A stretch of DNA of 64,000 nucleotides from Owenia fusiformis (Eukaryota > Annelida > Polychaeta > Sabellida > Oweniidae), in the NCBI GenBank assembly GCA_903813345.2, contig CAIIXF020000010.1:35203425-35267424 (forward strand), written 5' to 3'. The first letter of the stretch is position 1. Each line of letters opens with the position of its first letter. The notes under the pieces were generated by a model. That model was not told the DNA's origin, searched no databases, and was given only the letters and a program-made list of their open reading frames with translations. Made by a program: the position numbers and the translations under genes. This document shows positions 4,588 to 33,242 of this stretch, one piece after another.

Positions 4588-4828
4588 CTATGGGTCTTCC
4601 CCTACGAGGAATACGCGCATACGTTTACCCATAAAGTCCTGGCCATTAAGGTGAGTAACGGCACTTGCTGCCTCTTGGCTATTACTAAATCGAAATATTC
4701 CATACTTAGACCCGGTATTTTTGTCAAAACCAATTTGGACTCCCGTTATCCTGCCATAGCTACTAAGTCGTACATAAAGAGATTTATCGACGTCAATACT
4801 TAAGTTCTCTATTCGTATCTCATTCGCC
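4588..4828 (-). CDS. Gene A, exon 3: C-terminal RRM domain and stop
   Basis: This terminal exon encodes 79 residues plus TAG and forms an almost complete RRM fold. The RNP2-like strand is IRIENL, the RNP1-like strand is SKYGIFRF, and a second helix (FSNSQEAASAV) is followed by FMGKRMRVF. The minus-strand acceptor is TTTTATGTTACAG|G, phase 2: the first G completes the codon AC|G left by exon 2. Canonical RRMs carry aromatics at RNP2 position 2 and RNP1 position 5; here these are Arg and Ile, so ordinary RNA stacking is doubtful. The exon is clearly homologous to the gene B exon at 22226-22463 (EIRI-NL, FSNSQ-AA-AV-LN, FMG--M). Sequence similarity to gene B continues past the stop. The domain call is firm; membership in a secreted protein depends on the link to exon 1. 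Confidence 0.8.
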
Positions 4829-4942
4829 CTGTAACATAAAAGAACACACACCACTCTTTAAAAATTAAGTATTAGGTATTGTTAGTTCATTCGTTTTCAT
4901 CTATTCAATGAATCAAAAATCAAAAATTAAAACTATTCTTAC

Positions 4943-5248
4943 GTGGTTGACCCTGCATTATCCTTTTTGGGTTCAGGATCTTCAATTTGAGGTTTTTCAT
5001 GCGAGAGGGAAAAGTAAAGTGTTCGATCCCTATATGCCACTCTATCAAACGTATCAACAGCTCTCAGTGTGTCTCTTATGTCACTGTATTTAACCACAGC
5101 AAACTTCTCAGTCTGATACCTATCTGACCCAAATATCTTCACTGACGTTATCGTTTCCCCAAGTGGTGACAGTAATTTACGAAGAGCATTTTCAGTGATA
5201 TCAAAAGGTAAGTTCTCTATAAGTACAACTGCTGTCTTCGATAATTCC
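4943..5248 (-). CDS. Gene A, exon 2: first RRM domain
   Basis: This internal exon of 306 nt encodes an RRM: RNP2-like VLIENL, helix 1 (ENALRKLLSPLG), RNP1-like EKFAVVKYS, helix 2 (DTLRAVDTFD) and a last strand (YRDRTLYFSL), then an acidic/Lys tail (EDPEPKKDNAGS). Its acceptor is TTTTATATTACAG|G and its donor CCAC|GTAAGA on the minus strand. Both borders are phase 2, so the exon is symmetric and could be skipped without a frameshift. RNP2 position 2 is Leu and RNP1 position 5 is Val instead of aromatics. The intron just upstream (TGTAAACGGTGATATGTTAC) closely matches the one upstream of the gene B RRM exon. No copy of this exon was found near gene B. Confidence 0.8.
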
Positions 5249-5369
5249 CTGTAATATAAAAGTAACATATCACCGTTTACAAAGTTCCATCACAAATTAA
5301 ACAAGGCACAGACGTGAACAATATCGTACCTAAAACACAGCATTGTGGTCTTGTTGACCAAGAAAGCAA

Positions 5370-5960
5370 GATGGCCGCAGAAAAGTTAATCAGCTCTAGA
5401 AGTTATCACTGTGTAACATATGTAAAAATTTGAACGGTTTGGCTGGAAACCTGTAGACAAGTCTTGAAAGTGAAGATTTTAGGACGGAAAATCCAAAATG
5501 GCCACCTTAAAATTTACCCAGAATGCCCAAAAACTAATCAGTTCTTGACGTTGATATGTAGAAACATTCCTGAAAATTTCAGATGAATCCCTCAAATGGT
5601 TTGGCTGGAAACCTGTAGACAATCTTGAAGTGAAAATTTTAGGACGGAAAATCCAAAATGGCCACCTTAAGATTCATCCAGAATGCCTAAAAATTAATCA
5701 GTTCTTGACGTTGATATGTAGAAACATCCCTGAAAATTTCAGATGAATCCCTCAAATGGTTTGGCTGGAAACCTGTAGACAAGTCTTGAAAGTGAAGATT
5801 TTAGGACGGAAAATCCAAAATGGCCACCTTAAGATTTACCCAGAATGCCCAAAAACTAATCAGTTCTTGACGTTGATATGTAGAAAAACATCCCTGAAAA
5901 TTTCAGATGAATCCCTCAAATGGTTTGGCTGGAAACCTGTAGACAAGCTGAAAAGTGAGA
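5370..5960. repeat. Tandem array, ~160-bp unit, in gene A intron 1
   Basis: The motif GGTTTGGCTGGAAACCTG recurs at about 5437, 5598, 5758 and 5922. Between copies lie AAAATCCAAAATGGCCACCT and TCAGTTCTTGACGTTGATAT. The array has about 3.5 units and the first is diverged. It ends in a GC-rich CCGCCC/TTCCGCC stretch (5960-6000), very unlike the surrounding DNA. Confidence 0.9.
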
Positions 5961-6849
5961 CGCCGCCCGCCCTTCCGCCCTTCCGCCCGCCCGCCCGTCA
6001 AGCTGACTACAATATCGTACCTTTTGTTAGGTACGATAAAAATTAAAATTACTCTCACATGGCTGACAAGTAGGTCAACGAATAGGTCAAGTCGAGGTCA
6101 ACGTTACCCAGGGGACATTTTTTATGCTTTTTTCAAAAGGCAATTTTAGATGCAAATAAAGTGCATTGAAATCAATTGAACGTTTGATTGAAAAATCAAC
6201 TGTAACATGTAAAAGTGCCATTTATTCTGTTAAAGTGGAATCAAATTGGTGAATGATCTTGAGTTTTCATACTAAAGTTTGTTTTTGAGTTTTATTTTAT
6301 AGTTTTATGTATGTTTTATCAGACAGGGCCATTTTTCTAGAGCCCTTTTTAGAAAAATAATTGAGATTACAGAGGATACCTGTTATTTCTCACTACAATT
6401 TACCATAATGGAGAATGGGAGTTGAGCAACCAAACTTGGCGCAAAGTTGGACCCTGGGATGAGCTCTAATCTTATATTAGGGGTTTGATTTTTTGTGATA
6501 TCATATATTGGCCTAGCAACCGCATAGCAACCACCTAAAATAACATATTTTACCATATAAATCCACTAATATACGCTAGGATGCTATAAGACCATTACGA
6601 AAAATCTTCTTATCCTGAAATACAACAATTCAAACGTTAACATATTTGCAGTAGTGACATCATCATGTTGCATAGCAACAACATGGCAGCAGGTTACAAT
6701 GCCCATTTTGACATTTGGAGATCATATTTCCATTATATGCTCACTGGTATGCTTTTGGATCCCCTCCACTTAATTTATTTCTTAACAGAGCAATATTCAT
6801 CATATTGATACCACTAAGATAATACTTTATTTTGGTGTTTTGCTTCAAT

Positions 6850-8141
6850 TTCCTTTGCAGATGCATAGTTCGGTGCAGTAGAATGCACCACGGCATTTGC
6901 AGTTCCCTTATCAGGTACTTTTGGTGCATCCACATTTTATTTTGACTACATGCCTGCCTTGGATGCTTGGGCAGTATTGTCCATCTGGACACCCACAATC
7001 CTGATGCACTCCTAAACCATCCCAATATACTTGGTGAAGGAAGAACTGGATCCACTTTATACCATTGCCCCCATACACGTGCTCCTTGGAAAGTTATTCG
7101 CATGACAAGATAGAGTGCTGAATCGAAAGTTTTTGTCTCACTGTTTGTAGCCTGGTAAACCAGTACAGGTTGGGCCAAAAAAACGCCACTATTTTTCAAG
7201 ACACTACAACTTTTTCATTTTTCAACCTACATACCCCAAATTTTGCAGTTATATAGTGCCAGGAGTTCTTAGTTATAAAATAATGTAACAAGTCCTTCAA
7301 CTTGAATTATATTTGATCTAAAAGAGGAGTTCAATTGGTCCGTCACCCTATTTAATGATATATTTTAGTTTTGGTCTCCTTGCTGATACAGCAGTATCAA
7401 TGAAATGTTAACTAAGTTTTTTTTCAATCTGTCTTAATTGCCAGCTTTAGTAGAGCAATTTTCTAGATTGGGTGCCTTCATACAATCTCCTGGAGACCTT
7501 CCAATACCCTCTACTCACTGGGGTTTGCATCAGGGCTATTAGCTTGGCGATCACCAGGCCGTATCAGTTCAGGAACATTTTGCAAATTATGCTTATTCCT
7601 CATGGCACACCACATGTTTAAGTGAGACGCTGGTAACATATTTTATTCAGGTAAAAGTGTATAATTCATGATCCACGGGTAGATAAAAACCTGAAGTTTC
7701 ATTTGGTATGCAAATGATTTTGTATCAAAAATTAAAAAAGTTATATCATTTTGAAAAAAGTGGCGTTTTTTGGCCCACCCTATAATGAAATTCTAATTGT
7801 GACCATAACTTCGGTTGTTATGGTTGATGGGCAATCTGCTAGAGTCAAAATATCATTACACAAGTTCTATTGCTATGATGGTAAAATCCAGATGTGGTAT
7901 CAGTTCCAGTGGAACGTTGGCAGCGCACGTCTTGTGATCCTAGTCACAAGTGGTCCTTATGCTCTAGCAATCTCATGAACTTGAATGTAGCGTTACTTTT
8001 GCCTTTTGAAAATGCTCCATAGATATCAATCTTTAGCTCAGAGGCACAGGCTAGGGCTATCACAAGGACATCAGCGTCCACTGATTTTATCATAAATTTC
8101 CTGCACCCTATTCTAACACCATTAGACACATGTAAAAACAT
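6850..8141 (-). pseudogene. CXC-domain protein relic in the left arm of the foldback
   Basis: Reading the minus strand, about 8085-7990 encodes DADVLVIALACASEL followed by IYGAFSKGK. After a gap and a MITE insertion, about 7105-6860 encodes VWGQWYKVDPVLPSPS, then SRWTILPKHPRQAC, then a frameshifted Cys-rich tail (KCGCTKS, then GNCKCRGAFYCTELC). This order (a D-D/A-DVLVLA block, a VWGQ...LPSPS...W-TLP block, then C-x-C-type cysteines) matches an uncharacterised family repeated many times in invertebrate genomes. The copy is broken by at least one frameshift and by the inserted MITE. I do not know the function of the family. Confidence 0.55.
7166..7782. mobile_element. mariner-like MITE inside the foldback
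   Basis: The ends are inverted repeats of about 25 bp: CAGGTTGGGCCAAAAAAACG at 7166 against the complement of CGTTTTTTGGCCCACCCTA ending at 7782. TA dinucleotides flank both ends. Length is 617 bp with no transposase frame, so it is non-autonomous. The TIR style and TA target fit the Tc1/mariner superfamily. Confidence 0.8.
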
Positions 8142-8239
8142 ACGTGTATCTGCATCTTTCTAGGAGCAGGGACTCTTAGAGGATATGTCATAATAAGCAG
8201 GATTACTGATGTACTCTCCAAGGAAGAGGCAGATACACG

Positions 8240-8640
8240 TATTTTTTGCATGTGTCTTATGATGTCGGAAAAGGTGCAAGGTATTTATTGTAAGATCAGT
8301 GGACAGTAGTGTTGTTGCGATAGCCTTAGCATGTGCCTCTGAGCTACAGATTGAGATCTATGTAGCATTTTCAAAAGGCAAATATAACACTTGGGGGCAA
8401 TGGTGGATCCAATCTTCGTTCTTCAAGTCTATGAGGATGGTTTAGGAGTGCATCAGGATTGTGGGTGGCCAGATGGACAATACTACCGCAAGCATCCGAG
8501 GCATGTAAAGTCATTATTAAATGTGTATGCACCAAAAGTGACTGCAAAGAGAACTGCAAATGCCATGGTGCATTCTACTGCACCGTAACTAATGCAACTG
8601 CAAAGGAAATTGTAGCAATTAACCACAAAAAAATTATTAT
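8240..8640 (+). pseudogene. Second copy of the CXC-protein relic in the right arm
   Basis: This is the mirror image of the fragment at 6850-8141. About 8300-8380 encodes VDSSVVAIALACASELQIEI followed by AFSKGK. It then runs directly into WGQWW, with the ~270-bp spacer of the left arm deleted. About 8450-8600 in other frames encodes ARWTILPQASEACK and CVCTKSDCKENCKCHGAFYC. The Cys pattern resembles tesmin/TSO1-type CXC motifs. Several frameshifts show it is not functional. Confidence 0.55.
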
Positions 8641-8851
8641 CTTAGGGGAATCAATGCTGAAAAATGTAACAAGGATCAATACAGAAATATTTTGTGTTTA
8701 CTTCATCTCAGAACTGAAACATAAATTGCAGGACTTTTGCAATTTGATATACATAAGACAAGAAATGCCCTATCGTGCTTTACACAAGAGACTACGGATT
8801 TTTAAGTATGCGGCTATAAAGATTTATAAATTAAAAGACATTTATTATATA

Positions 8852-9218
8852 TATCAGATGTCCCAAAAAATGAGCCACTTTTTGACAAGTATTTTCTCAG
8901 CAACTGATTAATTAAATTCAATGAAAATTTGCATGAAGTAGCCTAAGCGTATTATTAACAAGTTGTAAAAATATAAAAAATGAATATTCTGTGAGAACTA
9001 ACAAATTAAAAATAGCATGTCAAATATTCCCATATCGGAGTTCTGATATGATACTTCTATAGTCTTTGTACCAGCTATCATCTACGCACGCTTGGTCTTC
9101 ACTGCGTTCGATGGGAGTCGAGTGATGTCTGATAAATTCTTTTCATTCATCCCAAATATCCAAAATCCAATTCATTCTCAAATTCATTGGAGGTGATATT
9201 TTTTGGGGACACCCGATA
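8852..9218. mobile_element. mariner-like MITE in the right arm
   Basis: The left end CAGATGTCCCAAAAAATGAG (about 8855) is an imperfect inverted match to the right end ATATTTTTTGGGGACACCCG (to about 9215), with TA-rich flanks. It is about 365 bp, absent from the left arm, and has no coding capacity. Boundaries are accurate to a few bases. Confidence 0.65.
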
Positions 9219-9975
9219 TATTGATTTTCTTCAAGTACATATAGTGGATATATACTGATATTTTCATGAGAAACATTGCTATTTTAAGCTGTTGCTAGGT
9301 CGTTGCTAGGTAGTTGCTAGGGAAAATGGTCAGACATAACTGCATCAATTATGCTTAAATACAATTGCTATATGTTGAGAAATAATGTGGAGGGGATCCA
9401 AAAGAATACAAGTGAGCAAATAATAGAAATATGGTGCGCATTGTAACCTGTTGTTGCCATGTTGTTGCTATGCAACATGGTAATGTCACTTTTGTAAATA
9501 TGTTTGAATTGTTGTATTTTAGGATAAGATGACTTGTTGTAATGGTCTTATGGCATCTTAGAATATATTAAGTGGATTTATATTGTAAATATGTTATTTT
9601 AGGTGGTTGCTATGTGGTTTCTAGGCAAATATATTATATCACAAAAATCAAACCCCTAAGATAAGAGCTCATTCCAGGGTCCAACTTTGTGCCAAGTTTG
9701 GTTGCTCAACTCCCATTTTCCATTGATAAATTATATTGAGATAAGGAGTTTGAAATTTTAATTTTCTATTTACATTGTTTATAAATAAAAACAGACATAA
9801 TGGGTATCCTCTGTAATCTAAATTATTTTTCTAAAAAGGGCTTTATAAAAAGGGCCCTGTCTCTAAAATGTCTTGAAATACATAGAAAAATTGGAAAAAA
9901 CTCCAAAACAAACCTCAGTACGAAAACGCAAGGTCCCTATGGGGGCCTTGCACCAATTGAGTCCAATATGACTCA

Positions 9976-11093: not shown

Positions 11094-11094
11094 C

Positions 11095-12006: not shown

Positions 12007-12058
12007 GTAAGAACATGTAAAGCAACATATGAAGGCACAATTGTTGTTCCTATCTAAT

Positions 12059-12350
12059 AAGAAGCTGGTTCAACAAGTTCAATAAAGGCATCTCAACAAT
12101 CGAAGATAAGCAAAGAAGTGGGCGAAAAAGGACAGCGATATTGAAAGGAAACATTGACTCAGTGAAGACAATAATGGAACAGGACAGTCGTTCTTCAATC
12201 AATGAGACTAGGGGCAAGATGCAGTTGAATGGAGAAAGAATCCTACTAAAGCAAAGCTCAATCTGAAAAAGGTAACTGCTAATAAGTGGATCCCCAACAA
12301 TGATAAGATAGGTGCATGGACTACACATTATGGTTGGATACATTAATTCT
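12059..12350 (+). pseudogene. mariner-type transposase relic (N-terminal HTH region)
   Basis: The plus strand encodes WFNKFNKGISTIEDKQRSGR followed, after KRT, by a helix-rich stretch with IMEQDSRSSINETR. This matches the helix-turn-helix region of mariner transposases (W-KKF--G---ED--RSGRP, then DRR-TI-E). A frameshift near 12260 then leads to KLNLKKVTANKWIPN, matching the LGL-KVSA-WVP segment that follows in that family. The catalytic DDD/DDE part is absent. It is a dead fragment beside the TIR element. Confidence 0.65.
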
Positions 12351-12412
12351 GACGTAAAAGTATCCTCATTCAAAATAATAATATATTACACGGTATAATT
12401 TTCACAGCTTAA

Positions 12413-12803: not shown

Positions 12804-12807
12804 TTAA

Positions 12808-13429: not shown

Positions 13430-13527
13430 CTATCCTCCGACAACATATTATAGGGGGACGGTCCTTCTTGAGCAGTACAGAGACATACAGCTGCAACTCC
13501 TAGACATATTATAGCCAGAGACTGCAT
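13430..13527 (-). CDS. Gene A, exon 1: signal peptide
   Basis: A minus-strand ATG opens a 32-codon exon beginning MQSLAIICLGVAAVCLCTA, a textbook secretory signal peptide (short N-region, 14-residue hydrophobic core, Ala before the likely cleavage site), then QEGPSPYNMLSED. The exon ends at AG|GTATAG (phase 2). A second donor AG|GTATGC lies 6 nt further on, in the same phase, and would add two residues. The next matching acceptors on this strand are the RRM exons at 5248 and 4828, also phase 2; the join makes an Arg codon. The implied product is about 214 residues: signal peptide plus two RRMs. The gene B exon at 25227-25336 is nearly identical through the signal peptide, and about 20 bases upstream of the ATG are also similar. 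The bases before ATG (GCTTCAG) could themselves be an acceptor. The exon call is good; the link to RRM exons 8 kb away is inference. Confidence 0.65.
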
Positions 13528-18531: not shown

Positions 18532-18875
18532 AAGATGTATAGATGTTTAACCGGCTTGGTACATGTATGTTCATGTTGTGTTTTGTACTATACATTATAA
18601 AGGGCTAGCTGGTTATATACTTCGATGCCAAGTAATGTATATGCTATTTGCATACAGCTGAGCTCACTGCCTGGAAAGTTTTCCTGGTTTCCCGGGATTT
18701 CATCAACGAGTCATAGGATAGAAAGTATTTAAAAAAGGATAATGAAAATTTAAAAAGTCACATTAGCAGCCAGTAAAAACATTACCAGCCATAAAATTAA
18801 TTTACTTTCTGAGTAAAATTGTTTCCCGAAATAAACAAAAGTAATGCCTCGGGCGTAGCCTATTCCTAAACTTAG

Positions 18876-20260
18876 CAGTCATGCTACGCATTCGTGCAAA
18901 CATCTTTGCGGATTCATAATCACACACTACCCTCGGAGTGAATCAATATTGCTATTCGCTGAACTTCAGTGGTGTAATAGTGAAGTCCATGTTCCAAGTT
19001 ATATGATAGTTGAAGAAAGAATGTAAATAATATCGTTTTAAATTTTAAAATATTTGATATGTCTTAGTACACGGTACACAGTTGCAAAAGTTGATCAATA
19101 CAGGGTACAAGGAATGTAAATTGTTCAATAGTACAAGGAGCGAGAAAGTAAGCTGGTTATACAGACATACTATGTCCCATATCTCATGTACATTTACGTT
19201 GCAAACAGCGAAAATAATGCTAAAAAGGCCGTCTGTTGATGCTTTGAGGTTTCATCAATATGTTATTTAATCCAAATAAAGTAAACATTATTTTGTAGAT
19301 TTAGACACGGGCTTTCAGGTCGTATATGCATTTTAGTCATTCAATTAACAAGAACGCTAGATTTGCGTGTTACTCAAATTGAAATAAAATAACAAAATTA
19401 AATATGAACACGTTGATGAATGACTATCCGCTATCAGTATTAATGACCATCCGCTATTCAGAATAATTAAAATTGCCTGAACTACACGTGAAGAATCTTT
19501 CTATATAACCCCTTGAATGGTTTAATTCACCACCGTCCTAAAAAACTGATCATTTAAAATGTGTTGCTCAAAACTTGAGAGCATTTTGTTCTTCACGATT
19601 TGCTGTAGCGCTGATATGACGTCGTATTTCTCTATTATTGTAAAAAAACAATACCATATATATCGATGTATGTCTTATATGACGTGTTGAATGCCAGATG
19701 TTTTTGGATGGTATCTGCTCAAGTGATTTTGCATTTAATCATGAAACGCTCATCACAAGACACCTCGAAACTAACACTATCCTCTTTGTGACAAGAGGAA
19801 AAATGTTTCGCAATATGTTATGCCTTACGGCAAAGTCAAGATACATTTCTGGGACGACTTTTTATGCATCGTAAGATTTTAGAAAAACAATTAATTCACA
19901 AAAATACATTTGAATAACATACTAGAAAACGTATCCACATATAACACGATGACACGCAGTTTAAATAACAGTTAACTGTTTTTTTTTGTTACATATCAAT
20001 GTAACATTTTCGAAGGGAAACTTACATGCTCCCTGTACGTTGATAGATTTACTGAAATGTATCGTGTATTGCATTTGAGTTTTGCTTCACTGCGCCGACT
20101 ATTAGCTATCTTTGCCTATAATGTTTTTTTGCCAACAATATTCTACAAACTGGTTGATGAATCAATTCTATGTCTGGTAGAACACTAGAAATAAATGTAA
20201 AATGTATTTTACGTTCAGAAATATGGAATTAAACCCACGTCCTCCATTTGCAACTTACCC
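18876..20260. other. No gene recognised (also in copy 2)
   Basis: Non-coding in appearance. The 62-residue frame at 19082-19270 has no domain and no codon signal. Its copy in the second unit is identical, so it offers no independent support. Confidence 0.4.
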
Positions 20261-20261
20261 C

Positions 20262-21066
20262 CCTATCACACCAAACTAGTTCTTACCCGTTCTTGCCAGT
20301 CCTACGAAAACATCGTAAACGGGCTCAATCTGGCTGTGGTCGGGAAATATGTCTGAAATAATTAGCTGCTTCGTTCTTAAACAGTCCTCAATACGTCCAT
20401 CTCGTTCGCAGTTCGTTAAGGTCGCACCACGTCGGTGTGCAACGTCGTAGAACGCATCCCTTAGTCTAGAAGGTCAACATGACCTGATTACAGAACGGTA
20501 TGGTCGCCATCGAATTTTGAATCGATTCAAAATTCTAAAATCACATTCCCGTCTGAGAACGTTCATAAAGTTCGTAAATAGACCTTAGAAAGTTGCAGCT
20601 ACGTTCATTCCGTTCGCACACAGTTTAAAACCAGTTTTGAAGAACGCAGTGGCAACTTATTTGGTGTGATAGCTATATTTTTGCTAACTCGTTCATAAGC
20701 AGTGTTAAATACGTTCTTAATCAGTTTAAACCCGTTTGCAATTAGTTCTACCTCGTTCTCAACACGCCCTCAGACAGTTCAACTCGTTGTTAAAACGTCC
20801 CTAGTAGGATTGAAGTACGACGGTTCCGTTCGTAGTACGTCCAGCTCGTCGTTAGTACGTTGTCACTCGTTCTAATTGTAGAACGTGACGACCACGAGAA
20901 CATTTTGAGCATATTCTAAGTTCAAGAGGACCTACCCGTTCGAGTACGTTCGATGAAGTTTGTAAATAGATCCCAAACAGTTCTTAGTAGGTCCAGTCCG
21001 TTCGTACACAGTTGAAGCCCGTTTTCGAGAACGTAGTGAGAACTAGTTTGGTGTGATAGTAGGGTT
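20262..21066. mobile_element. TATCACACC element, copy in duplication unit 1
   Basis: The inverted ends are CCTATCACACCAAACTAGTT and the complement of AACTAGTTTGGTGTGATAGT. The interior is unusually rich in CGTTC/GAACG words. It contains a 24-bp perfect palindrome at 20512-20535 (GAATTTTGAATC and its complement). The twin is at 28168-28972, and an inverted dispersed copy is at 38019-38738. No coding capacity. Three-base TTA/TAA flanks are suggestive only. Confidence 0.8.
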
Positions 21067-21129
21067 AGCTGTACCCTGTTTCCCTTTTAAACGTGGTCAC
21101 GTGGTAGGGTAGTGTGAATCAGTCTACGA

Positions 21130-21605
21130 TGCACTGAATCCAGGGAGTAAATCCTTAGCCCTAGAAGCCCTTGAGTAGAAAAGTCACGCGAACGCGTAAG
21201 GGTCAAAAGGACCCCCACTTGTAAAATCTTTATTAGTAAAACTTGGATGTGCAAGCTTTTCCCAGATATACTGTACTTCATTCAATTATCTACGATATGG
21301 TATAATAACTTTAGAAGTATGATGAAGTAAGATTGCATAATTTTATTCTAAAGACAACACGTATGGAAAAATTAGTGCTAGCTTTTTCCGAATTTGCTAT
21401 TGGAGCTGATGCTTACATCATAATAAATTAATCACCCTATGTACAAATCTGCTTTTTAAGAAAACATTTGTTGTATCTGTAGCTCCAGCTACTGAGAATT
21501 TGAAGATCCTACCTGATGCCTATGAAATGTTTCAGAGAAAAAACTTAGCTTGGGGACCTTAGGGCTTCTAGGGTTAAGCCAATCCTCCCTGGCCCTGAAT
21601 ACAGT
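21130..21605. repeat. Inverted repeat pair around CCTAGAAGCCCT
   Basis: CCAGGGAGTAAATCCTTAGC followed by CCTAGAAGCCCTT (from about 21137) is matched in reverse near 21560-21595 (AGGGCTTCTAGGG, then CCTCCCTGG). This could be a non-autonomous element of about 470 bp with short TIRs. The copy in unit 2 is at 29036-29511. Confidence 0.5.
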
Positions 21606-21837
21606 AACCTATACAATTTGTCACCCAGCACTGGACGAAAATATTATGAACATTGTGAACGGATTGAACTTTGGGGAATTTTAGAGAATTTCGCGGCTAT
21701 AACATTACGCGAATTATTACCATGGGAATGATGCGGCTATTATATTTCATGAATTTACCAAAACTCGCAATAAGCGCGAAATGTAGTACCACGGGAAATT
21801 TACCAGTGGTACAGTACATAGAAACTCGTTTTTGGGA

Positions 21838-21885
21838 AGCGTACACCCATTTCGATAGGATATCCTATCGAAATGGGTGTACGCT
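21838..21885. repeat. 48-bp perfect palindrome
   Basis: The half-site AGCGTACACCCATTTCGATA plus GGAT is followed immediately by its exact complement, with no spacer. A partial third copy of the half (ATGGGTGTACACT) follows at about 21901. The twin is at 29744-29791. Confidence 0.95.
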
Positions 21886-22225
21886 AGTGATATAGTGATA
21901 TATGGGTGTACACTATAGTGATATTTGTATTAATTTGAGAACATTTTTGATATTTTTTGCATAATTAATATATTCATTCCAAGTAGATCAATAATTGTAT
22001 ATAAATGGTGTTGCTAACATTGCTCTTATCATTGTATAATAATCTTAAACGTCAAGAAATGTTCGACGTGATCACTTGTCCATTGAAGTCCTATATATTG
22101 TTGATGTTGTGTTTCCACTATTGCCGCAACGACTTCCTTAGCTTCTATATCTTCTTCGACTACCTCTGTTATATTTTCTTCTGCTCCTCCCAACCTCTTC
22201 TTTTAGAGCTTCCAAGAGGTTTCCT

Positions 22226-22463
22226 CTAATAGACGCTTATGACCATAGGCTGACCCATAAACATTGCTCTATTAAGGTCAGCAACAGCATCTGCTGCGTC
22301 TTGGCTGTTACTGAATTTAACTTGTGCATACTTGAATTGGGTACCGCTATCATCGTATACCTTAAATGACGTAATTGTTCCATATAATTCCAGTAGACTA
22401 CGAAGAGAATCTTCATTGAAGTCCGAAACTAAGTTCTTTATACGTATCTCCTCTCCTAATGCC
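22226..22463 (-). CDS. Gene B1, exon 2: RRM domain and stop
   Basis: This terminal exon encodes 78 residues and TAG. It shows RNP2-like IRIKNL, helix 1 (NEDSLRSLLELYG), RNP1-like FKYAQVKF, helix 2 (NSQDAADAVADLN) and a last strand (FMGQPMVISVY). The acceptor is TTTTGTGTTATAG|G, phase 2, which fits the AG left by the signal exon at 25227. The coding sequence is closest to gene A exon 3, but the intron end (TGTAAATAGCGATACGTTGC) is closest to the one before gene A exon 2. Gene B may therefore have lost an exon by recombination between homologous exons. RNP2 position 2 is Arg and RNP1 position 5 is Gln, not aromatic. Sequence after the stop still aligns with gene A (GGAAGTCGTT...AATAGTGGAAA). 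Confidence 0.8.
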
Positions 22464-22859
22464 CTATAACACAAAAGCAACGTATCGCTATTTACAAGGT
22501 AAGCACTGTTAGTTACTATTTTTATCCATTCCCTCAAAAATTAAGATTAAAAGTCATTATTATATACCTCAAATGTATTCTAGATGCTCATTGGCTTATT
22601 CATGGTCACATGACATGGAATAGATGAACTAATTCCCTGGAAAGTCCTTAATCCCTGCTTTCAGGGAAGATGGATTGTACTAATCACCAGTTAGGTCATG
22701 TGACCAGTCAATAGTACGTTTTATCTTCCCCCAAATCTGAGATTATAGGAGTTGAAAGGTAGAATGCCTTTAAATGCCAATAAGAACCTGTGAACATTTG
22801 ATATTGAAATGAAAAGACTTCTCATTTTGTTTTTGTTTACAGAGTACTTATCACAGAGC

Positions 22860-23000
22860 TGTCAAGTGTCCCGCGAATGGCGGGATTATCCCGAGAATTC
22901 GATCAAAATTAGGCTAATTCGCGTGTCCCGCAATGTCCCGCGAAGTCCCGCAAATGTGACTTTCGACCTCGAAGTTTTTGCACTTTTTGCACTAAAGTTT
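22860..23000. repeat. CCCGCGAAT-type short repeats, left block
   Basis: TGTCCCGCGAATGGCGGGAT and variants (GTCCCGCAATGTCCCGCGAA) recur. The same words return at 24340-24650 on the other side of the GGGTACC foldback. Possibly one TIR-like element interrupted by the foldback. It lies in gene B intron 1. Confidence 0.65.
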
Positions 23001-23199
23001 ACCTAATTTTAAGTACCTAGCATGCTGTTGTTTGGTATCAAAATGAAGAGGAAGGGTTCAACTTTCATTTTAATTACGACAATAGGGATGTAGGTCACAA
23101 TTAGTTCCAACGTTGGCCTTTTTACTATCCGTGTGGCCTTCATCTCAGAACTGAGCAAATGATAGCAAACGCGAGTTACAATAAATGGACGCTGATATC

Positions 23200-23995
23200 T
23201 AGAAAGGGTTTGTAGAAAAAACCGGGTACCGGGTAGTAAATCCTCCATGCTGGGTTCAAACTTGGTACCCGGTACCCGGTCAAAAAACGGGTACCCAAAA
23301 AATGAAAAATACGAATATACGAGTATAACATAATTAGATTATCAGAAAACGTGTAAGATTTGTTTTGAATTTACAAAAATGTATGTAACATCCTTCAAAA
23401 TTGAGCTAGAAGCTTCAAATAAAAAGCATATTTTAAGGCTCTTTTCTTCCTCTATCGTCATGACCATATTTTCATTGGTTATGTTCACGTACCAACATAC
23501 GAACTCATTGAAAATAGGGTAAAATTGATTTGTCTTGTTATTCAAATCGTCTTACAATGTCATTGGCGTAGCCAGGAGAGTGTCTGATGGTGCGATCGCA
23601 CCCCCTCCCCCTTCATTACCAATGGAAATATGACCATGATGATAGAGGAAGAAAAGAGGCTTAAAATGCTTTTTATTTGAAGCTTCTAGCTCAATTTTGA
23701 AGGAAGTTACATTTTTGTAAATTCAAAACAAATCTTACACGTTTTCGAATGATCTAATTATGTTGTATATTCGTATATTTCGTTTTTTGGGTACCCGGTT
23801 TTTCGACCGGGTACCAAGTTTGTCTACGTAAATTTTATTTATATTATTAATTGCATTACATTTACATGTACATATTTATATTTACATTTACATGTACATA
23901 AATAAGAATGAAGGAATAAAAAAAAAAAAAAGTTTGAACCCAGCATGGAAGATTTACTACCCGGTACCCGGTTTTTTCTACAAACCCTATCTAGA
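23200..23995. mobile_element. GGGTACC foldback element in gene B intron
   Basis: The left arm begins GGGTTTGTAGAAAAAACCGG at about 23205. The right arm ends with the complement at about 23988. Arms of about 330 bp include repeated GGTACCCGG, GCTAGAAGCTTCAAATAAAA and CTTCCTCTATCGTCATGACC. The right arm carries an extra 110 bp (23822-23930) of ACATTTACATGTACAT repeats and an A-run. The centre contains GGCGTAGCCAGGAG, also seen in the element at 58672. The twin is at 31106-31901. Confidence 0.85.
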
Positions 23996-24046
23996 AAAGT
24001 AACCTCATTCCCTATAATTTGATGTAGATTAATCGAACCCCTATAT

Positions 24047-24072
24047 CATGGGCTTTCAATTGAAAGCCCATG
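24047..24072. repeat. 26-bp perfect palindrome
   Basis: CATGGGCTTTCAA is followed directly by TTGAAAGCCCATG, with no spacer. The twin is at 31953-31978. No surrounding TIR element was recognised. Confidence 0.9.
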
Positions 24073-24339
24073 CCTACAGTATGGTAGTAGTTGGTCACGA
24101 CGCCAGAAGCAGAGGAGTGCAAAGTATTGTTCCAAATATTATGATACTCACACCTCGAGCATGGTTTTTGTTTTTGATAAATTACAATAAAGTTTAAATA
24201 ATATTTCTATGCGTATTTTGTGAAATTATGTTGACGTTTATTTAAGTTACAATGTAACGGTGCATTATATTTGATTAATCAGTATCTGAAAGTTTGATTC
24301 AAGTACTTTTACACGCTTCTACATTAGTCCAAATCACGC

Positions 24340-24655
24340 AAATCCCTTGAATGTCCCGGGACATCCTGCAAATTTAGGTGGATGTCCCGCGAAATCCCGC
24401 AAATTTAGGGCACTTTTTCTAGAAAATCTGTCCCTCTATGAAGTTTTTGCTGGTAAACCTGTTAACTGTCCCGCAATTAGGGTGTTTGTCCCTCGAATGG
24501 TCCCGCGAATTTGATAAAAAAATTGGCCTATAAGCGCAATCACGCAAATCCCTTAAATGTCCCGCGAAATCCCGCGAATTTAGTAGATGTCCCGCAAAAT
24601 CCCGCGAATTTTGGGCACTGGGTCTAAAAAATCTGTCCCGCGAGAAAATCTTTGG
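24340..24655. repeat. CCCGCGAAAT-type short repeats, right block
   Basis: TGTCCCGCGAAATCCCGCGA and close variants occur about ten times at 20-60 bp spacing, matching the block at 22860-23000. The twin is at 32246-32561. Confidence 0.75.
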
Positions 24656-24679
24656 CGGTTGACAGTACTGTTATCAGGT

Positions 24680-24872
24680 ATATAATAAAACAAATAGTGA
24701 CTGCCACATTTTCGGGAAATAGTGTAAAAATTTTCCTCTCGGGAATATCCTGTCCACTGACTTGTTCCCTCGGCCTGCAGCCTCGGGAACATGTCAGTGG
24801 ACAGGATATTCCCTTGAGGAAAATATTTTGCACTATTTCCCTCAATGGCAGCCACTATTTGTACACTATCAC
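24680..24872. mobile_element. Palindromic foldback MITE
   Basis: ACAAATAGTGACTGCCA at about 24690 pairs with TGGCAGCCACTATTTGT ending at about 24862. The inner pair GGAATATCCTGTCCACTGAC faces its complement across CGGCCTGCAGCC. Short frames on both strands are artefacts. The twin is at 32586-32778. Confidence 0.85.
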
Positions 24873-24881
24873 ATGGCTTTT

Positions 24882-24992
24882 AGTGGCGGATCCAGAAATC
24901 AACAAAGGAGGGGGGGATTTTGAGAAAGTTCCTGCCCCTAAAACTCAAAATTGGGCCCAAATTTTGAAATATTGAGTCCCGAATCCGCCACT
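24882..24992. mobile_element. AGTGGCGGATC MITE
   Basis: The ends AGTGGCGGATCC and GAATCCGCCACT are inverted and enclose a G-run and TTGGGCCC. A related element lies at 25541-25737. The twin is at 32788-32898. Confidence 0.7.
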
Positions 24993-25226
24993 GGCTTAAC
25001 CTTCATTTTCCTTTCTGGCCTCATTTCTGAGGCAGCTGATATCATCTGAATATGCAACCTATCTCTTTCCTATTTGTATAATTTGCTAATCGGATCTTTA
25101 TAGACATTTTTAACATTTAGTAATCAATTGTTGTGAAAATAATTGTCAAAGACAGTCCGTTAGCAGGTTTATATCAAGGGACACACATACGCCTATATGT
25201 TAATTATGAAATAGGTTTTTACATAC

Positions 25227-25336
25227 CTTTCCAAAATATCCACCACTAATTGATCAATATCGGTGGGCGATCCTCTTTGAGCAGTGCAGAGACATACAAC
25301 TGCAACTCCGAGGCATATTATCGCTATAGACTGCAT
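25227..25336 (-). CDS. Gene B1, exon 1: signal peptide
   Basis: The minus-strand ATG begins MQSIAIICLGVAVVCLCTA, a clear secretory signal peptide differing from gene A by two conservative changes, then QRGSPTDIDQLVVDILE. The exon ends GAAAG|GTATGT (phase 2), and the next compatible acceptor is the RRM exon at 22463, giving Arg at the join. The product would have about 115 residues: signal, an 18-residue spacer and one RRM. The conserved signal with a diverged spacer argues for selection on secretion, though the family link between signal and RRM remains inferred from order, strand and phase in two genes. The upstream bases (CATTTCTTAATGCTTCAG) are shared with gene A and could be 5' UTR or an acceptor. 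Confidence 0.65.
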
Positions 25337-25540
25337 CTGAAGCATTAAGAAATGTTTTGATCATCGGTGATCATTGATTGATCTACATCTAAATCAACAT
25401 TATCAAATTCTAAAGCCAGTCATTAATGGTTGAGAAATAGGGATCAAACCAGTCATAATTTTCTCTTGATGACTATAATAGACCATTGTGATTTATCTAT
25501 GGATTACGGCGACGGCTTTGCGAATGGATGATGACCCTTT

Positions 25541-25737
25541 GCACTGGCGGATCTGGGGGGGGGGGCTCCCCCCTTAGGTGGGCCCAAAAGAATTTTGGGC
25601 CAAGAAAATGGGCCTCGAAATTTGAATATTTGGGCCCACTTTTAGGTTTAAGGGGCCCACATTTTTTTCCCAAAGTCTTTTTCTCTGACCTGATATTTGC
25701 CCCCTCTCCTTGTTGGTTCCAAGATCCGCCCCTGGTT
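25541..25737. mobile_element. CACTGGCGGATC MITE
   Basis: The ends ACTGGCGGATCTGG and AGATCCGCCCCTGG are inverted around a G-run, TGGGCCC words and a C-rich end. Related to 24882-24992. The 70-residue frame here is a by-product. The twin is at 33447-33643. Confidence 0.7.
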
Positions 25738-25739
25738 TG

Positions 25740-26775
25740 AAACGCCGATGGACTTTGAGATTGGATTTTGTATAACTCGCATCATTTGAGACTGGATATT
25801 GTTCTTTCTTGTATAAGCACTTATATTAACTATTTTGATGTCATATATTGGCTATCAATTTCTATGTTTTTCTTTAACATTTATCGTAATTACTTCAGTA
25901 TAATGCAATGTCCCTTGGTCTTCTGGTCTTGAATTGTGATATTGGTTCTCATAGATATGATAACATAATAGGGGAAATCGGGTATTAGACATTGGTTCTT
26001 TTCACGCTAGATCATGATTTTGGGATATATGGGGTTTGTTTTTCATATGATTTGTGTACACTTCAGTTACAGTTTGTTTTTCTTGCGGGGCTGATACAAC
26101 TTTTTGTCCTTTCCCTTTGACACTTGTGGTTAGATATTCATGTACATTATTATCATTAACCTGTCGTCAAATATATTGTGTGGTTCCGTCAAAAGTATAG
26201 GGTTAAGTTGCTTCATGATTAAGGATTTTATTGCCTCTGTAACACCTCAAAAACCTTTAATTACGAAACTTTTATCAAATTTATTTCAACTGACAACATT
26301 TTCCTGGGATTACTTCCAAAAACATTCACCTCATACGACTACCCCAGTTCGCTGTAAACCGGTTTATGATTATACTTGTCCTTTGTGCAATGGTACATTA
26401 CCATTGCGAGGAAATAGTGGTGCGCGACTAAAGATTTTACGTTCGCGATGTGAGAATCGTGGTTCGAGTGCAAGGAACGTAGTTCGCAATGTCAGAACTG
26501 ATGTTCGCGTTGATGGACGTCTAGGAGGCCTGGACATACAGTACTGACTTTCGATTATGCAACGAAGTGTTCACAAAATGTGACATAGAGAAATGCGTAT
26601 CCAGGGAGATGTATGTATCTTAAAAAAATAAAAATGTTTACTCTCCGGAACCAACAAAGCCCAATTACGGCGTGTCACGTACTGGAAAGACTCCCATGAA
26701 TTTTTCAACAAGACGCAACTTACTTTAACAATTATTCCACACATGCACGCATGCTTGGTAACTTCAACGCCCATG
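25740..26775. other. Upstream of gene B1, no gene recognised
   Basis: The 135-residue frame at 26140-26547 contains DYTCPLCNGTLPLRG but no full zinc-binding motif, splice support or family I know. Confidence 0.35.
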
Positions 26776-29700
26776 ACTTAGCAGTCATGCTACGCATTCG
26801 TGCAAACATCTTTGCGGATTCATAATCACACACTACCCTCGGAGTGAATCAATATTGCTATTCGCTGAACTTCAGTGGTGTAATAGTGAAGTCCATGTTC
26901 CAAGTTATATGATAGTTGAAGAAAGAATGTAAATAATATCGTTTTAAATTTTAAAATATTTGATATGTCTTAGTACACGGTACACAGTTGCAAAAGTTGA
27001 TCAATACAGGGTACAAGGAATGTAAATTGTTCAATAGTACAAGGAGCGAGAAAGTAAGCTGGTTATACAGACATACTATGTCCCATATCTCATGTACATT
27101 TACGTTGCAAACAGCGAAAATAATGCTAAAAAGGCCGTCTGTTGATGCTTTGAGGTTTCATCAATATGTTATTTAATCCAAATAAAGTAAACATTATTTT
27201 GTAGATTTAGACACGGGCTTTCAGGTCGTATATGCATTTTAGTCATTCAATTAACAAGAACGCTAGATTTGCGTGTTACTCAAATTGAAATAAAATAACA
27301 AAATTAAATATGAACACGTTGATGAATGACTATCCGCTATCAGTATTAATGACCATCCGCTATTCAGAATAATTAAAATTGCCTGAACTACACGTGAAGA
27401 ATCTTTCTATATAACCCCTTGAATGGTTTAATTCACCACCGTCCTAAAAAACTGATCATTTAAAATGTGTTGCTCAAAACTTGAGAGCATTTTGTTCTTC
27501 ACGATTTGCTGTAGCGCTGATATGACGTCGTATTTCTCTATTATTGTAAAAAAACAATACCATATATATCGATGTATGTCTTATATGACGTGTTGAATGC
27601 CAGATGTTTTTGGATGGTATCTGCTCAAGTGATTTTGCATTTAATCATGAAACGCTCATCACAAGACACCTCGAAACTAACACTATCCTCTTTGTGACAA
27701 GAGGAAAAATGTTTCGCAATATGTTATGCCTTACGGCAAAGTCAAGATACATTTCTGGGACGACTTTTTATGCATCGTAAGATTTTAGAAAAACAATTAA
27801 TTCACAAAAATACATTTGAATAACATACTAGAAAACGTATCCACATATAACACGATGACACGCAGTTTAAATAACAGTTAACTGTTTTTTTTTGTTACAT
27901 ATCAATGTAACATTTTCGAAGGGAAACTTACATGCTCCCTGTACGTTGATAGATTTACTGAAATGTATCGTGTATTGCATTTGAGTTTTGCTTCACTGCG
28001 CCGACTATTAGCTATCTTTGCCTATAATGTTTTTTTGCCAACAATATTCTACAAACTGGTTGATGAATCAATTCTATGTCTGGTAGAACACTAGAAATAA
28101 ATGTAAAATGTATTTTACGTTCAGAAATATGGAATTAAACCCACGTCCTCCATTTGCAACTTACCCCCCTATCACACCAAACTAGTTCTTACCCGTTCTT
28201 GCCAGTCCTACGAAAACATCGTAAACGGGCTCAATCTGGCTGTGGTCGGGAAATATGTCTGAAATAATTAGCTGCTTCGTTCTTAAACAGTCCTCAATAC
28301 GTCCATCTCGTTCGCAGTTCGTTAAGGTCGCACCACGTCGGTGTGCAACGTCGTAGAACGCATCCCTTAGTCTAGAAGGTCAACATGACCTGATTACAGA
28401 ACGGTATGGTCGCCATCGAATTTTGAATCGATTCAAAATTCTAAAATCACATTCCCGTCTGAGAACGTTCATAAAGTTCGTAAATAGACCTTAGAAAGTT
28501 GCAGCTACGTTCATTCCGTTCGCACACAGTTTAAAACCAGTTTTGAAGAACGCAGTGGCAACTTATTTGGTGTGATAGCTATATTTTTGCTAACTCGTTC
28601 ATAAGCAGTGTTAAATACGTTCTTAATCAGTTTAAACCCGTTTGCAATTAGTTCTACCTCGTTCTCAACACGCCCTCAGACAGTTCAACTCGTTGTTAAA
28701 ACGTCCCTAGTAGGATTGAAGTACGACGGTTCCGTTCGTAGTACGTCCAGCTCGTCGTTAGTACGTTGTCACTCGTTCTAATTGTAGAACGTGACGACCA
28801 CGAGAACATTTTGAGCATATTCTAAGTTCAAGAGGACCTACCCGTTCGAGTACGTTCGATGAAGTTTGTAAATAGATCCCAAACAGTTCTTAGTAGGTCC
28901 AGTCCGTTCGTACACAGTTGAAGCCCGTTTTCGAGAACGTAGTGAGAACTAGTTTGGTGTGATAGTAGGGTTAGCTGTACCCTGTTTCCCTTTTAAACGT
29001 GGTCACGTGGTAGGGTAGTGTGAATCAGTCTACGATGCACTGAATCCAGGGAGTAAATCCTTAGCCCTAGAAGCCCTTGAGTAGAAAAGTCACGCGAACG
29101 CGTAAGGGTCAAAAGGACCCCCACTTGTAAAATCTTTATTAGTAAAACTTGGATGTGCAAGCTTTTCCCAGATATACTGTACTTCATTCAATTATCTACG
29201 ATATGGTATAATAACTTTAGAAGTATGATGAAGTAAGATTGCATAATTTTATTCTAAAGACAACACGTATGGAAAAATTAGTGCTAGCTTTTTCCGAATT
29301 TGCTATTGGAGCTGATGCTTACATCATAATAAATTAATCACCCTATGTACAAATCTGCTTTTTAAGAAAACATTTGTTGTATCTGTAGCTCCAGCTACTG
29401 AGAATTTGAAGATCCTACCTGATGCCTATGAAATGTTTCAGAGAAAAAACTTAGCTTGGGGACCTTAGGGCTTCTAGGGTTAAGCCAATCCTCCCTGGCC
29501 CTGAATACAGTAACCTATACAATTTGTCACCCAGCACTGGACGAAAATATTATGAACATTGTGAACGGATTGAACTTTGGGGAATTTTAGAGAATTTCGC
29601 GGCTATAACATTACGCGAATTATTACCATGGGAATGATGCGGCTATTATATTTCATGAATTTACCAAAACTCGCAATAAGCGCGAAATGTAGTACCACGG

Positions 29701-30131
29701 GAAATTTACCAGTGGTACAGTACATAGAAACTCGTTTTTGGGAAGCGTACACCCATTTCGATAGGATATCCTATCGAAATGGGTGTACGCTAGTGATATA
29801 GTGATATATGGGTGTACACTATAGTGATATTTGTATTAATTTGAGAACATTTTTGATATTTTTTGCATAATTAATATATTCATTCCAAGTAGATCAATAA
29901 TTGTATATAAATGGTGTTGCTAACATTGCTCTTATCATTGTATAATAATCTTAAACGTCAAGAAATGTTCGACGTGATCACTTGTCCATTGAAGTCCTAT
30001 ATATTGTTGATGTTGTGTTTCCACTATTGCCGCAACGACTTCCTTAGCTTCTATATCTTCTTCGACTACCTCTGTTATATTTTCTTCTGCTCCTCCCAAC
30101 CTCTTCTTTTAGAGCTTCCAAGAGGTTTCCT

Positions 30132-30369
30132 CTAATAGACGCTTATGACCATAGGCTGACCCATAAACATTGCTCTATTAAGGTCAGCAACAGCATCTGC
30201 TGCGTCTTGGCTGTTACTGAATTTAACTTGTGCATACTTGAATTGGGTACCGCTATCATCGTATACCTTAAATGACGTAATTGTTCCATATAATTCCAGT
30301 AGACTACGAAGAGAATCTTCATTGAAGTCCGAAACTAAGTTCTTTATACGTATCTCCTCTCCTAATGCC
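30132..30369 (-). CDS. Gene B2, exon 2: RRM domain and stop
   Basis: Identical to gene B1 exon 2 at 22226-22463: acceptor phase 2, RNP2-like IRIKNL, RNP1-like FKYAQVKF, terminal FMGQPMVISVY and TAG. If the duplication is real, this is a second, so far undiverged gene with its own complete intron and upstream region. If it is an assembly duplicate, it is the same gene. Confidence 0.75.
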
Positions 30370-33132
30370 CTATAACACAAAAGCAACGTATCGCTATTTA
30401 CAAGGTAAGCACTGTTAGTTACTATTTTTATCCATTCCCTCAAAAATTAAGATTAAAAGTCATTATTATATACCTCAAATGTATTCTAGATGCTCATTGG
30501 CTTATTCATGGTCACATGACATGGAATAGATGAACTAATTCCCTGGAAAGTCCTTAATCCCTGCTTTCAGGGAAGATGGATTGTACTAATCACCAGTTAG
30601 GTCATGTGACCAGTCAATAGTACGTTTTATCTTCCCCCAAATCTGAGATTATAGGAGTTGAAAGGTAGAATGCCTTTAAATGCCAATAAGAACCTGTGAA
30701 CATTTGATATTGAAATGAAAAGACTTCTCATTTTGTTTTTGTTTACAGAGTACTTATCACAGAGCTGTCAAGTGTCCCGCGAATGGCGGGATTATCCCGA
30801 GAATTCGATCAAAATTAGGCTAATTCGCGTGTCCCGCAATGTCCCGCGAAGTCCCGCAAATGTGACTTTCGACCTCGAAGTTTTTGCACTTTTTGCACTA
30901 AAGTTTACCTAATTTTAAGTACCTAGCATGCTGTTGTTTGGTATCAAAATGAAGAGGAAGGGTTCAACTTTCATTTTAATTACGACAATAGGGATGTAGG
31001 TCACAATTAGTTCCAACGTTGGCCTTTTTACTATCCGTGTGGCCTTCATCTCAGAACTGAGCAAATGATAGCAAACGCGAGTTACAATAAATGGACGCTG
31101 ATATCTAGAAAGGGTTTGTAGAAAAAACCGGGTACCGGGTAGTAAATCCTCCATGCTGGGTTCAAACTTGGTACCCGGTACCCGGTCAAAAAACGGGTAC
31201 CCAAAAAATGAAAAATACGAATATACGAGTATAACATAATTAGATTATCAGAAAACGTGTAAGATTTGTTTTGAATTTACAAAAATGTATGTAACATCCT
31301 TCAAAATTGAGCTAGAAGCTTCAAATAAAAAGCATATTTTAAGGCTCTTTTCTTCCTCTATCGTCATGACCATATTTTCATTGGTTATGTTCACGTACCA
31401 ACATACGAACTCATTGAAAATAGGGTAAAATTGATTTGTCTTGTTATTCAAATCGTCTTACAATGTCATTGGCGTAGCCAGGAGAGTGTCTGATGGTGCG
31501 ATCGCACCCCCTCCCCCTTCATTACCAATGGAAATATGACCATGATGATAGAGGAAGAAAAGAGGCTTAAAATGCTTTTTATTTGAAGCTTCTAGCTCAA
31601 TTTTGAAGGAAGTTACATTTTTGTAAATTCAAAACAAATCTTACACGTTTTCGAATGATCTAATTATGTTGTATATTCGTATATTTCGTTTTTTGGGTAC
31701 CCGGTTTTTCGACCGGGTACCAAGTTTGTCTACGTAAATTTTATTTATATTATTAATTGCATTACATTTACATGTACATATTTATATTTACATTTACATG
31801 TACATAAATAAGAATGAAGGAATAAAAAAAAAAAAAAGTTTGAACCCAGCATGGAAGATTTACTACCCGGTACCCGGTTTTTTCTACAAACCCTATCTAG
31901 AAAAGTAACCTCATTCCCTATAATTTGATGTAGATTAATCGAACCCCTATATCATGGGCTTTCAATTGAAAGCCCATGCCTACAGTATGGTAGTAGTTGG
32001 TCACGACGCCAGAAGCAGAGGAGTGCAAAGTATTGTTCCAAATATTATGATACTCACACCTCGAGCATGGTTTTTGTTTTTGATAAATTACAATAAAGTT
32101 TAAATAATATTTCTATGCGTATTTTGTGAAATTATGTTGACGTTTATTTAAGTTACAATGTAACGGTGCATTATATTTGATTAATCAGTATCTGAAAGTT
32201 TGATTCAAGTACTTTTACACGCTTCTACATTAGTCCAAATCACGCAAATCCCTTGAATGTCCCGGGACATCCTGCAAATTTAGGTGGATGTCCCGCGAAA
32301 TCCCGCAAATTTAGGGCACTTTTTCTAGAAAATCTGTCCCTCTATGAAGTTTTTGCTGGTAAACCTGTTAACTGTCCCGCAATTAGGGTGTTTGTCCCTC
32401 GAATGGTCCCGCGAATTTGATAAAAAAATTGGCCTATAAGCGCAATCACGCAAATCCCTTAAATGTCCCGCGAAATCCCGCGAATTTAGTAGATGTCCCG
32501 CAAAATCCCGCGAATTTTGGGCACTGGGTCTAAAAAATCTGTCCCGCGAGAAAATCTTTGGCGGTTGACAGTACTGTTATCAGGTATATAATAAAACAAA
32601 TAGTGACTGCCACATTTTCGGGAAATAGTGTAAAAATTTTCCTCTCGGGAATATCCTGTCCACTGACTTGTTCCCTCGGCCTGCAGCCTCGGGAACATGT
32701 CAGTGGACAGGATATTCCCTTGAGGAAAATATTTTGCACTATTTCCCTCAATGGCAGCCACTATTTGTACACTATCACATGGCTTTTAGTGGCGGATCCA
32801 GAAATCAACAAAGGAGGGGGGGATTTTGAGAAAGTTCCTGCCCCTAAAACTCAAAATTGGGCCCAAATTTTGAAATATTGAGTCCCGAATCCGCCACTGG
32901 CTTAACCTTCATTTTCCTTTCTGGCCTCATTTCTGAGGCAGCTGATATCATCTGAATATGCAACCTATCTCTTTCCTATTTGTATAATTTGCTAATCGGA
33001 TCTTTATAGACATTTTTAACATTTAGTAATCAATTGTTGTGAAAATAATTGTCAAAGACAGTCCGTTAGCAGGTTTATATCAAGGGACACACATACGCCT
33101 ATATGTTAATTATGAAATAGGTTTTTACATAC

Positions 33133-33242
33133 CTTTCCAAAATATCCACCACTAATTGATCAATATCGGTGGGCGATCCTCTTTGAGCAGTGCAGAGACA
33201 TACAACTGCAACTCCGAGGCATATTATCGCTATAGACTGCAT
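33133..33242 (-). CDS. Gene B2, exon 1: signal peptide
   Basis: Identical to gene B1 exon 1 at 25227-25336 (signal peptide, short spacer, donor GAAAG|GTATGT). About 1.4 kb of the same upstream DNA is included before the duplication ends, so any proximal promoter is probably copied too. Beyond 34681 the upstream sequence differs from that of B1. Confidence 0.6.

Follow-up and report, generated by a model that had tools for sequence, protein, structure and literature searches.

Candidate chimeric secretory genes joining a shared signal-peptide exon to RRM exons in the annelid Owenia fusiformis

Here we analyse two predicted genes, A and B, in a 64,000-nucleotide stretch of DNA of Owenia fusiformis (contig CAIIXF020000010.1, positions 35,203,425 to 35,267,424; the whole stretch is termed the window), in which an exon for a signal peptide appears to be joined to exons for the RNA recognition motif (RRM), and we compare them with the closest described systems. 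A homologous 'export exon' in the skin peptide genes of frogs is named in the title of Kuchler, Kreil and Sures 1989, as cited in PMC3731216, and the excerpts of PMC3731216 state that purifying selection acts on the signal peptide in the precursors of the frog antimicrobial peptides, whose mature region diversifies. Like A and B, the frog genes of these excerpts have a single signal-peptide exon that is common to genes with different products. By contrast, the cargoes in frogs are short peptides, whereas here they are folded, usually intracellular domains (the RRM and the EF-hand of calcyphosin), and there is no evidence of common descent between the two systems.

Other systems resemble A and B in part. 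The SSGP-11 superfamily of the Hessian fly, as presented in the excerpts of PMC2990301, has a conserved signal peptide and intron phase, a diverged mature part and clustered genes, as A and B have, but in the same excerpts it has no RRM, and the calcyphosine gene that appears there is an unrelated control. SARP-19 of Littorina, a protein of 168 amino acids (aa) with two EF-hands according to the excerpts of PMC2699829, is likened to the present genes by description only. Calcyphosin (PDB 3e3r, 11yj) is matched by sibling genes at the loci termed C2a, C5 and others below, which share the first exon of the window genes. A and B differ from this calcyphosin family in having no EF-hand exon. To our knowledge, the solved calcyphosin carries no signal peptide, and we know of no relation of SARP-19 to the RRM.

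The RRM, one of the most common RNA-binding domains, is regarded as intracellular. PABP, TIA-1, IMP3 and HuR have the same fold and Pfam family as the RRMs of the window, and they presumably have no signal peptide and retain the aromatic residues of the ribonucleoprotein (RNP) motifs, while the window genes have a predicted signal peptide and their RRMs lack both main aromatics. A limited literature search for secreted RRM proteins found no animal case, which does not show that they are unreported. The mollusc vdg3, considered on a hunch as a known case, was rejected, as the excerpts of PMC4203926, PMC4938671 and PMC5549309 give no RRM for it. In coccoliths of the alga C. braarudii an RRM-superfamily protein is among the acidic proteins, with no signal peptide stated in the excerpts of PMC11685980. 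We rate the sharing of an export exon as already known, and usually cytosolic folds as its cargo as what differs here.

Exons and predicted products of genes A and B

The features of the two genes are as follows, with a slash marking an exon border.

13430..13527, minus strand: gene A, first coding exon (signal peptide and linker, MQSLAIICLGVAAVCLCTAQ...SEDR); CAG/ATG acceptor, phase-2 donor; E 1.6e-9 with a profile of 14 exons from outside the window
4943..5248, minus strand: gene A, RRM1 exon; Pfam RRM_1 E 5e-10; splice sites
4588..4828, minus strand: gene A, RRM2 exon and stop; Pfam RRM_1 E 9e-8; splice site
25227..25336, minus strand: gene B, first coding exon (signal peptide and linker); CAG/ATG acceptor, AAG/GTATGT phase-2 donor; E 5e-11 with the same profile
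22226..22463, minus strand: gene B, RRM exon and stop; Pfam RRM_1 E 1e-12; structural model with pLDDT 93.4
33133..33242, minus strand: copy of gene B, first coding exon; joined product identical to that of B
30132..30369, minus strand: copy of gene B, RRM exon; Pfam RRM_1 E 1e-12; joined product identical to that of B
18870..34685 (18870-26779 and 26776-34685), no strand: two head-to-tail 7.9-kb tandem copies carrying gene B; one mismatch in 7,910

The architecture of a signal peptide followed by RRMs, which the first-pass annotation of this DNA had proposed, holds. With scripted splicing, gene A gives a product of 214 aa with a signal peptide and two RRMs, gene B and its copy each give one of 115 aa with a signal peptide and one RRM, and none of the products has an internal stop. 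All four RRM exons tested, that of the B copy included, score above the cut-off of Pfam RRM_1 (PF00076), with 32-48 bits versus 20.7. In the first exon of gene A another possible donor lies 6 nt further (13424) and would give a product of 216 aa. When the window sequence is spliced, every exon border of A and B is GT-AG, and all are of phase 2 and in frame, as had been claimed. The additional claim that each join creates Arg is true of the joins between signal and RRM exons in A and B (AG/G), but not of the RRM1-RRM2 join of gene A, one of the three distinct joins, which is AC/G and gives Thr.

The signal peptide was predicted from hydropathy. The hydropathy of residues 4-19 is 2.65 and 2.84 in the two genes, residues 1-20 are uncharged and no hydrophobic span occurs later, so that A and B both have a predicted N-terminal hydrophobic signal peptide with no later membrane span.

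The doubling of locus B, noted before, is also found here, with a single mismatch between the tandem copies in 7,910 bases; the duplication is either very recent or an assembly artefact. Of the clustered, expanding family that had been proposed, A, B and the copy of B are indeed present, but they amount to two genes and a near-identical copy, with no further significant member in the genome searches with A and B, and the word 'expanding' depends on the possible artefact.

The shared signal exon, its cargoes and the proposed joining to RRM exons

The genome searched comprises 498 Mb in 525 contigs, in which the window is G000:C10:35203425-35267424. Four weak genome matches of the first exon of B (C5:2453916, C2:7329415, C9:35454213 and C2:7671797) are all homologous exons: in each, a splice acceptor at the ATG is followed by a hydrophobic core and then by a donor of phase 2. 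Further searches gave more homologous exons at C2:7648476, C11:4004744, C11:4009333, C218:6858 and C2:1210992, and a third group of exons at C2:1.02-1.26 Mb, C7:7.86 Mb, C7:38.36 Mb and C9:38.11 Mb; for this group 32 matches were listed, including tandem partial copies and already known ones, and a part of them was fetched. In the pattern searches for the signal exon, 1 of 6 matches and then 10 of 17 were accepted, with 1 and 4 matches in the reversed-pattern controls. Note also that in the third group (G000:C2:1019174-1261552, C7:7859990-7860934, C7:38359651, C9:38114949, C218:6858; L025-L028, L050-L053) the exon ends in KR, and that at C7:7.86 Mb there are at least 8 tandem copies of the exon with a spacing of ~116 bp.

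All 14 of the aligned outside exons end in KR before the phase-2 GT, and 13 of them have AG immediately before the ATG, with one base between in the exon of locus C9b. The dibasic KR is replaced by ER in gene B and DR in gene A. When the profile of these 14 exons was scored on 1,558 open reading frames of the window (>=25 aa), the three window copies ranked at the top (E 5e-11, 5e-11 and 1.6e-9) with the next at E 1.6, and none of 5,000 shuffles of A and none of 5,000 of B reached the real score. A and B thus each have a first coding exon that is homologous to the outside exons and has a phase-2 donor, which places both in the export-exon family. Counting A and B with the 13 fetched outside loci, this exon was seen on seven contigs, of which six are large. 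With a profile made from seven exons of EF-hand loci B scores 44.2 bits and A 24.5, and with one from seven exons of other loci B scores 19.5 and A 23.0; B therefore has most in common with the first exon of the EF-hand genes (44.2 versus 19.5 bits).

The downstream DNA was read at the 13 loci outside the window, with C11, which has two exons, counted once. At six of them (C5, C2a, C2b, C2c, C9 and C11) EF-hand exons lie downstream on the same strand; at the other seven (C218, C2d, C2e, C2f, C7a, C7b and C9b) neither an EF-hand nor an RRM was found at E<=0.05 within 8-20 kb (best E 0.13). An RRM follows the signal exon at none of the 13 (best E 0.16). The EF-hand gene of C2a splices in frame, its first intron is of phase 2, as is that of C5, and the protein assembled by hand from its exons matches EF-hand_1 with 9e-17 and calcyphosin 3e3r with 2e-12; for the EF-hand gene of C9 the splice enumeration gave no full model, the exon bounds probably being too tight. 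The signal exon is thus common to genes for calcyphosin-like, calcium-binding EF-hand proteins and not private to RRM genes, which goes beyond the earlier annotation. A and B are themselves outside the calcyphosin-like EF-hand family, which is defined by downstream EF-hand exons: none of ten EF-hand exon queries matched the window convincingly, the best having E 0.05 over 12 residues. Among the loci seen, several have the homologous first exon ahead of calcyphosin-like EF-hands, and only the window has it ahead of RRMs; from this wider spread of the EF-hand form we infer that the capture would have run from an EF-hand gene to an RRM gene.

A short exon reading KR/CxxGC... (22-25 aa) occurs downstream in C2e and C7a and may encode a mature peptide. 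The motif scan found it at 2 of 7 scanned loci, an exact match under C2d being the same DNA as C2e; as a cargo of the third group it is unproven.

The joining of signal and RRM exons in one gene can be examined from the conservation between the loci of A and B. With blastn of window positions 1-18500 against 18870-26779 (E<=1e-3), five matches were obtained, four of which are collinear on the minus strand. The first is the signal exon, 85% identical over 100 bp. The second and third are a piece of the RRM1 exon of A (69% over 153) and a piece of its RRM2 exon (74% over 92), which align to successive halves of the RRM exon of B. The fourth, 88% identical over 34 bp, lies past the stop codons:

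4510..4543, minus strand: 34-bp block past the stop of gene A; shares 88% identity with 22106-22139
22106..22139, minus strand: 34-bp partner block past the stop of gene B; found by blastn with 4510-4543

The fifth match is unrelated, 30 bp long and on the opposite strand, and no other same-strand block occurs. The earlier view of two separate loci is supported, and they are diverged. Between A and B the protein of the signal exon is 83% identical over 23 codons, with a nonsynonymous divergence (dN) of 0.08-0.12 and a synonymous divergence (dS) of ~0.3. The 34-bp block in both genes reads GSR(F/C)GNSGNTT in another frame and is perhaps the relic of a Gly-rich tail. Inspection by eye led us to reject it as an extra coding exon: it lacks a pyrimidine-rich acceptor, and only one frame has mostly silent changes, a frame other than that of the RRM.

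Moreover, the open frame of the RRM exon of B lacks an in-frame Met before the RRM, implying that an upstream exon is needed; the RRM1 exon of A has an in-frame Met ahead of the RRM, located within the acceptor stretch. The conservation of order and strand in A and B, the matching phases and the Met-less RRM exon of B together argue for joining of the signal and RRM exons in one gene. The signal exon could instead belong to another gene, or be a relic of an EF-hand gene, with the RRM exons having a different first exon, so that two unrelated transcripts would be produced. This is suggested by the facts that the joins are predicted from genomic DNA, that elsewhere the signal exon precedes EF-hands, that the cargo has no named match at 7 of the 13 loci and that the intron of gene A is 8.2 kb long. 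We nevertheless regard two transcripts as unlikely, since the signal and RRM exons are conserved in a collinear arrangement at both loci, between them no further block is conserved on that strand, the phases match and the ten EF-hand exon queries gave no EF-hand exon in the window.

The RRM domains: fold, RNA-contact residues and evolutionary rate

The AlphaFold2 model of the RRM of B, which aligns with both RRMs of A, has pLDDT 93.4 and the predicted order beta-alpha-beta-beta-alpha-beta. With this model Foldseek gave 1,899 matches at E<=10, and the best 50 of the 1,899, at query template-modelling (TM) scores of 0.71-0.89, are structures that we take, by title or recall, to be RRM-bearing. 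The nearest solved sequence relative of the window RRMs is PABP (E 9e-17). The donor gene of the RRMs was not found in the genome, where the nearest RRMs are 32-34% identical with E 0.2-0.5. When the genome was searched with A, 19 candidates were scored, and with B 10; neither search gave a further significant member, the next being at E 0.2, and a large secreted-RRM family was not found. It is noted that six partial RRM matches lie across 180 kb at G000:C9:34156394-34334412, possibly another clustered RRM family.

We take RNP2 position 2 and RNP1 position 5 to be the main RNA-stacking positions of canonical RNA contact. In all three window RRMs both are non-aromatic (Leu/Val, Arg/Ile and Arg/Gln). 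As controls, 28 RRM domains of the same genome were chosen by eye for near-full length, with His counted as aromatic and two alignment gaps at RNP2-2 as non-aromatic; 23 of the 28 are aromatic at RNP2-2, 27 at RNP1-5, and only one lacks both. For 3/3 versus 1/28 the chance is 4 in 4,495 if the domains are independent; those of the window are, however, related to one another, and high-scoring RRMs are favoured among the controls. This loss of aromatic residues bears on canonical RNA binding, not on membership of the RRM_1 family. The mature proteins of A and B have no cysteine.

The same secreted chimeras might still bind extracellular RNA, for example as a mucosal or antiviral RNA binder, and action on extracellular RNA had indeed been suggested for them. 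The high-confidence RRM fold, the aromatic residue kept at RNP1 position 3 in all three domains and the tandem pair of RRMs in gene A would agree with this. However, with both main stacking aromatics lost in 3/3 window RRMs against 1/28 controls, action on extracellular RNA is disfavoured, and we give it a small chance of being right.

For the evolutionary rate, the Nei-Gojobori method (NG86) gives dN/dS of 0.84, 0.86 and 0.77 for the three pairs of window RRMs (bootstrap 0.42-1.58, 0.52-1.46 and 0.39-1.29), 0.23 (0.14-0.38) for the EF-hand exons 2-5 of C2a versus C5, and, for two triple-RRM genes on C6 that we take to be ELAV-like, 0.20 (0-0.31). Another control set, of RRM exons at C9:9.19-9.21 Mb, was left out because the longest frame had been taken for its three exons and is wrong in at least two. 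Fast evolution of the mature domain next to a similar signal peptide is in keeping with diversification of a secreted protein, as judged from sequence.

Such rates might also be expected if A and B are decaying relics under weak or no constraint. The bootstrap intervals include 1, 3-8% of the neutral simulations for each pair remain free of stops, which leaves neutrality possible pair by pair, and the block past the stop may be a lost Gly-rich tail. By contrast, none of the three RRM exons (78, 79 and 101 codons) is interrupted by a stop, their indels are in frame, the splice sites are canonical and the fold is predicted with high confidence, so that decay appears quite improbable.

Proposed explanation and its meaning

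We propose, with a probability of roughly 0.55, that A and B are chimeric secretory genes in which an export exon is joined to one or more RRM exons, the product being a secreted scaffold that does not bind RNA. In the proposed pathway, a ready-made export exon (a signal peptide and a short linker, bounded by an acceptor at the ATG and a donor of phase 2), common to the calcyphosin-like EF-hand genes, would be spliced to one or two RRM exons via compatible phase-2 introns. The product would enter the endoplasmic reticulum, where the signal peptide would be cleaved near CTAQ, and a cysteine-free RRM-fold protein of ~95 residues (B) or 194 (A) would be secreted. Outside the cell the RRM fold would serve as a scaffold binding protein or another ligand rather than RNA, as suggested by the loss of both main stacking aromatics and the fast evolution of the domain. 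By analogy with proteins such as SARP-19 and SSGP-11, our guess is that the products belong to a diversifying secretion of gut or mucus or to one used in defence. More broadly, and only tentatively, at somewhat less than even odds, a portable export exon may front unrelated cargoes (the RRM, the calcyphosin EF-hand and one or more further classes) and so make new secreted proteins, with the RRM branch being an extracellular, non-RNA-binding, fast-diversifying scaffold.

Several points weigh against this explanation. The first intron of gene A would span 8.2 kb, and the signal exon of A fits the EF-hand profile no better than that of the third group (24.5 versus 23.0 bits). With 7 of the 13 outside loci having no named cargo, the signal exon in the window could in principle serve another exon too. 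The aromatic residue at RNP1 position 3, present in 20 of the 28 controls, is kept in 3/3 window RRMs. An acidic isoelectric point as a mark of lost RNA binding had to be rejected, since the values of 4.4 (B) and 5.5 (A) are within or at the edge of the control range of 4.5-10.0. As for the rates, dN/dS of the signal exon is 0.39 with an interval of 0.04-1.85, too wide to prove constraint, and the values depend on the alignment: for B versus RRM1 of A the three-way alignment gives dN 0.66 and dS 0.52, the other alignment dN/dS 0.86. In addition, three sequences cannot separate relaxed constraint from positive selection.

Elsewhere in the window, positions 41391-44707 on the plus strand have open frames that by eye resemble a retroelement, with a reverse transcriptase, an RNase H and a tyrosine-recombinase-like frame. 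Positions 1-1206, within the strongly skewed first 2 kb, contain self-similar repeats with copies of ~72-80%, and positions 62925-63302 form a tandem array with a period of ~27 bp.

Finally, we note what the chimeric secretory genes would mean for the RRM family. They would be a warning that an RRM annotation by itself does not amount to RNA binding. If the proposal is true, A and B would be a testable case of exon shuffling, with the exon family, the border phase and the recipient visible in one genome, in which a captured exon exports an RRM that has lost its RNA-contact residues and evolves fast, giving a second life to an old intracellular fold.

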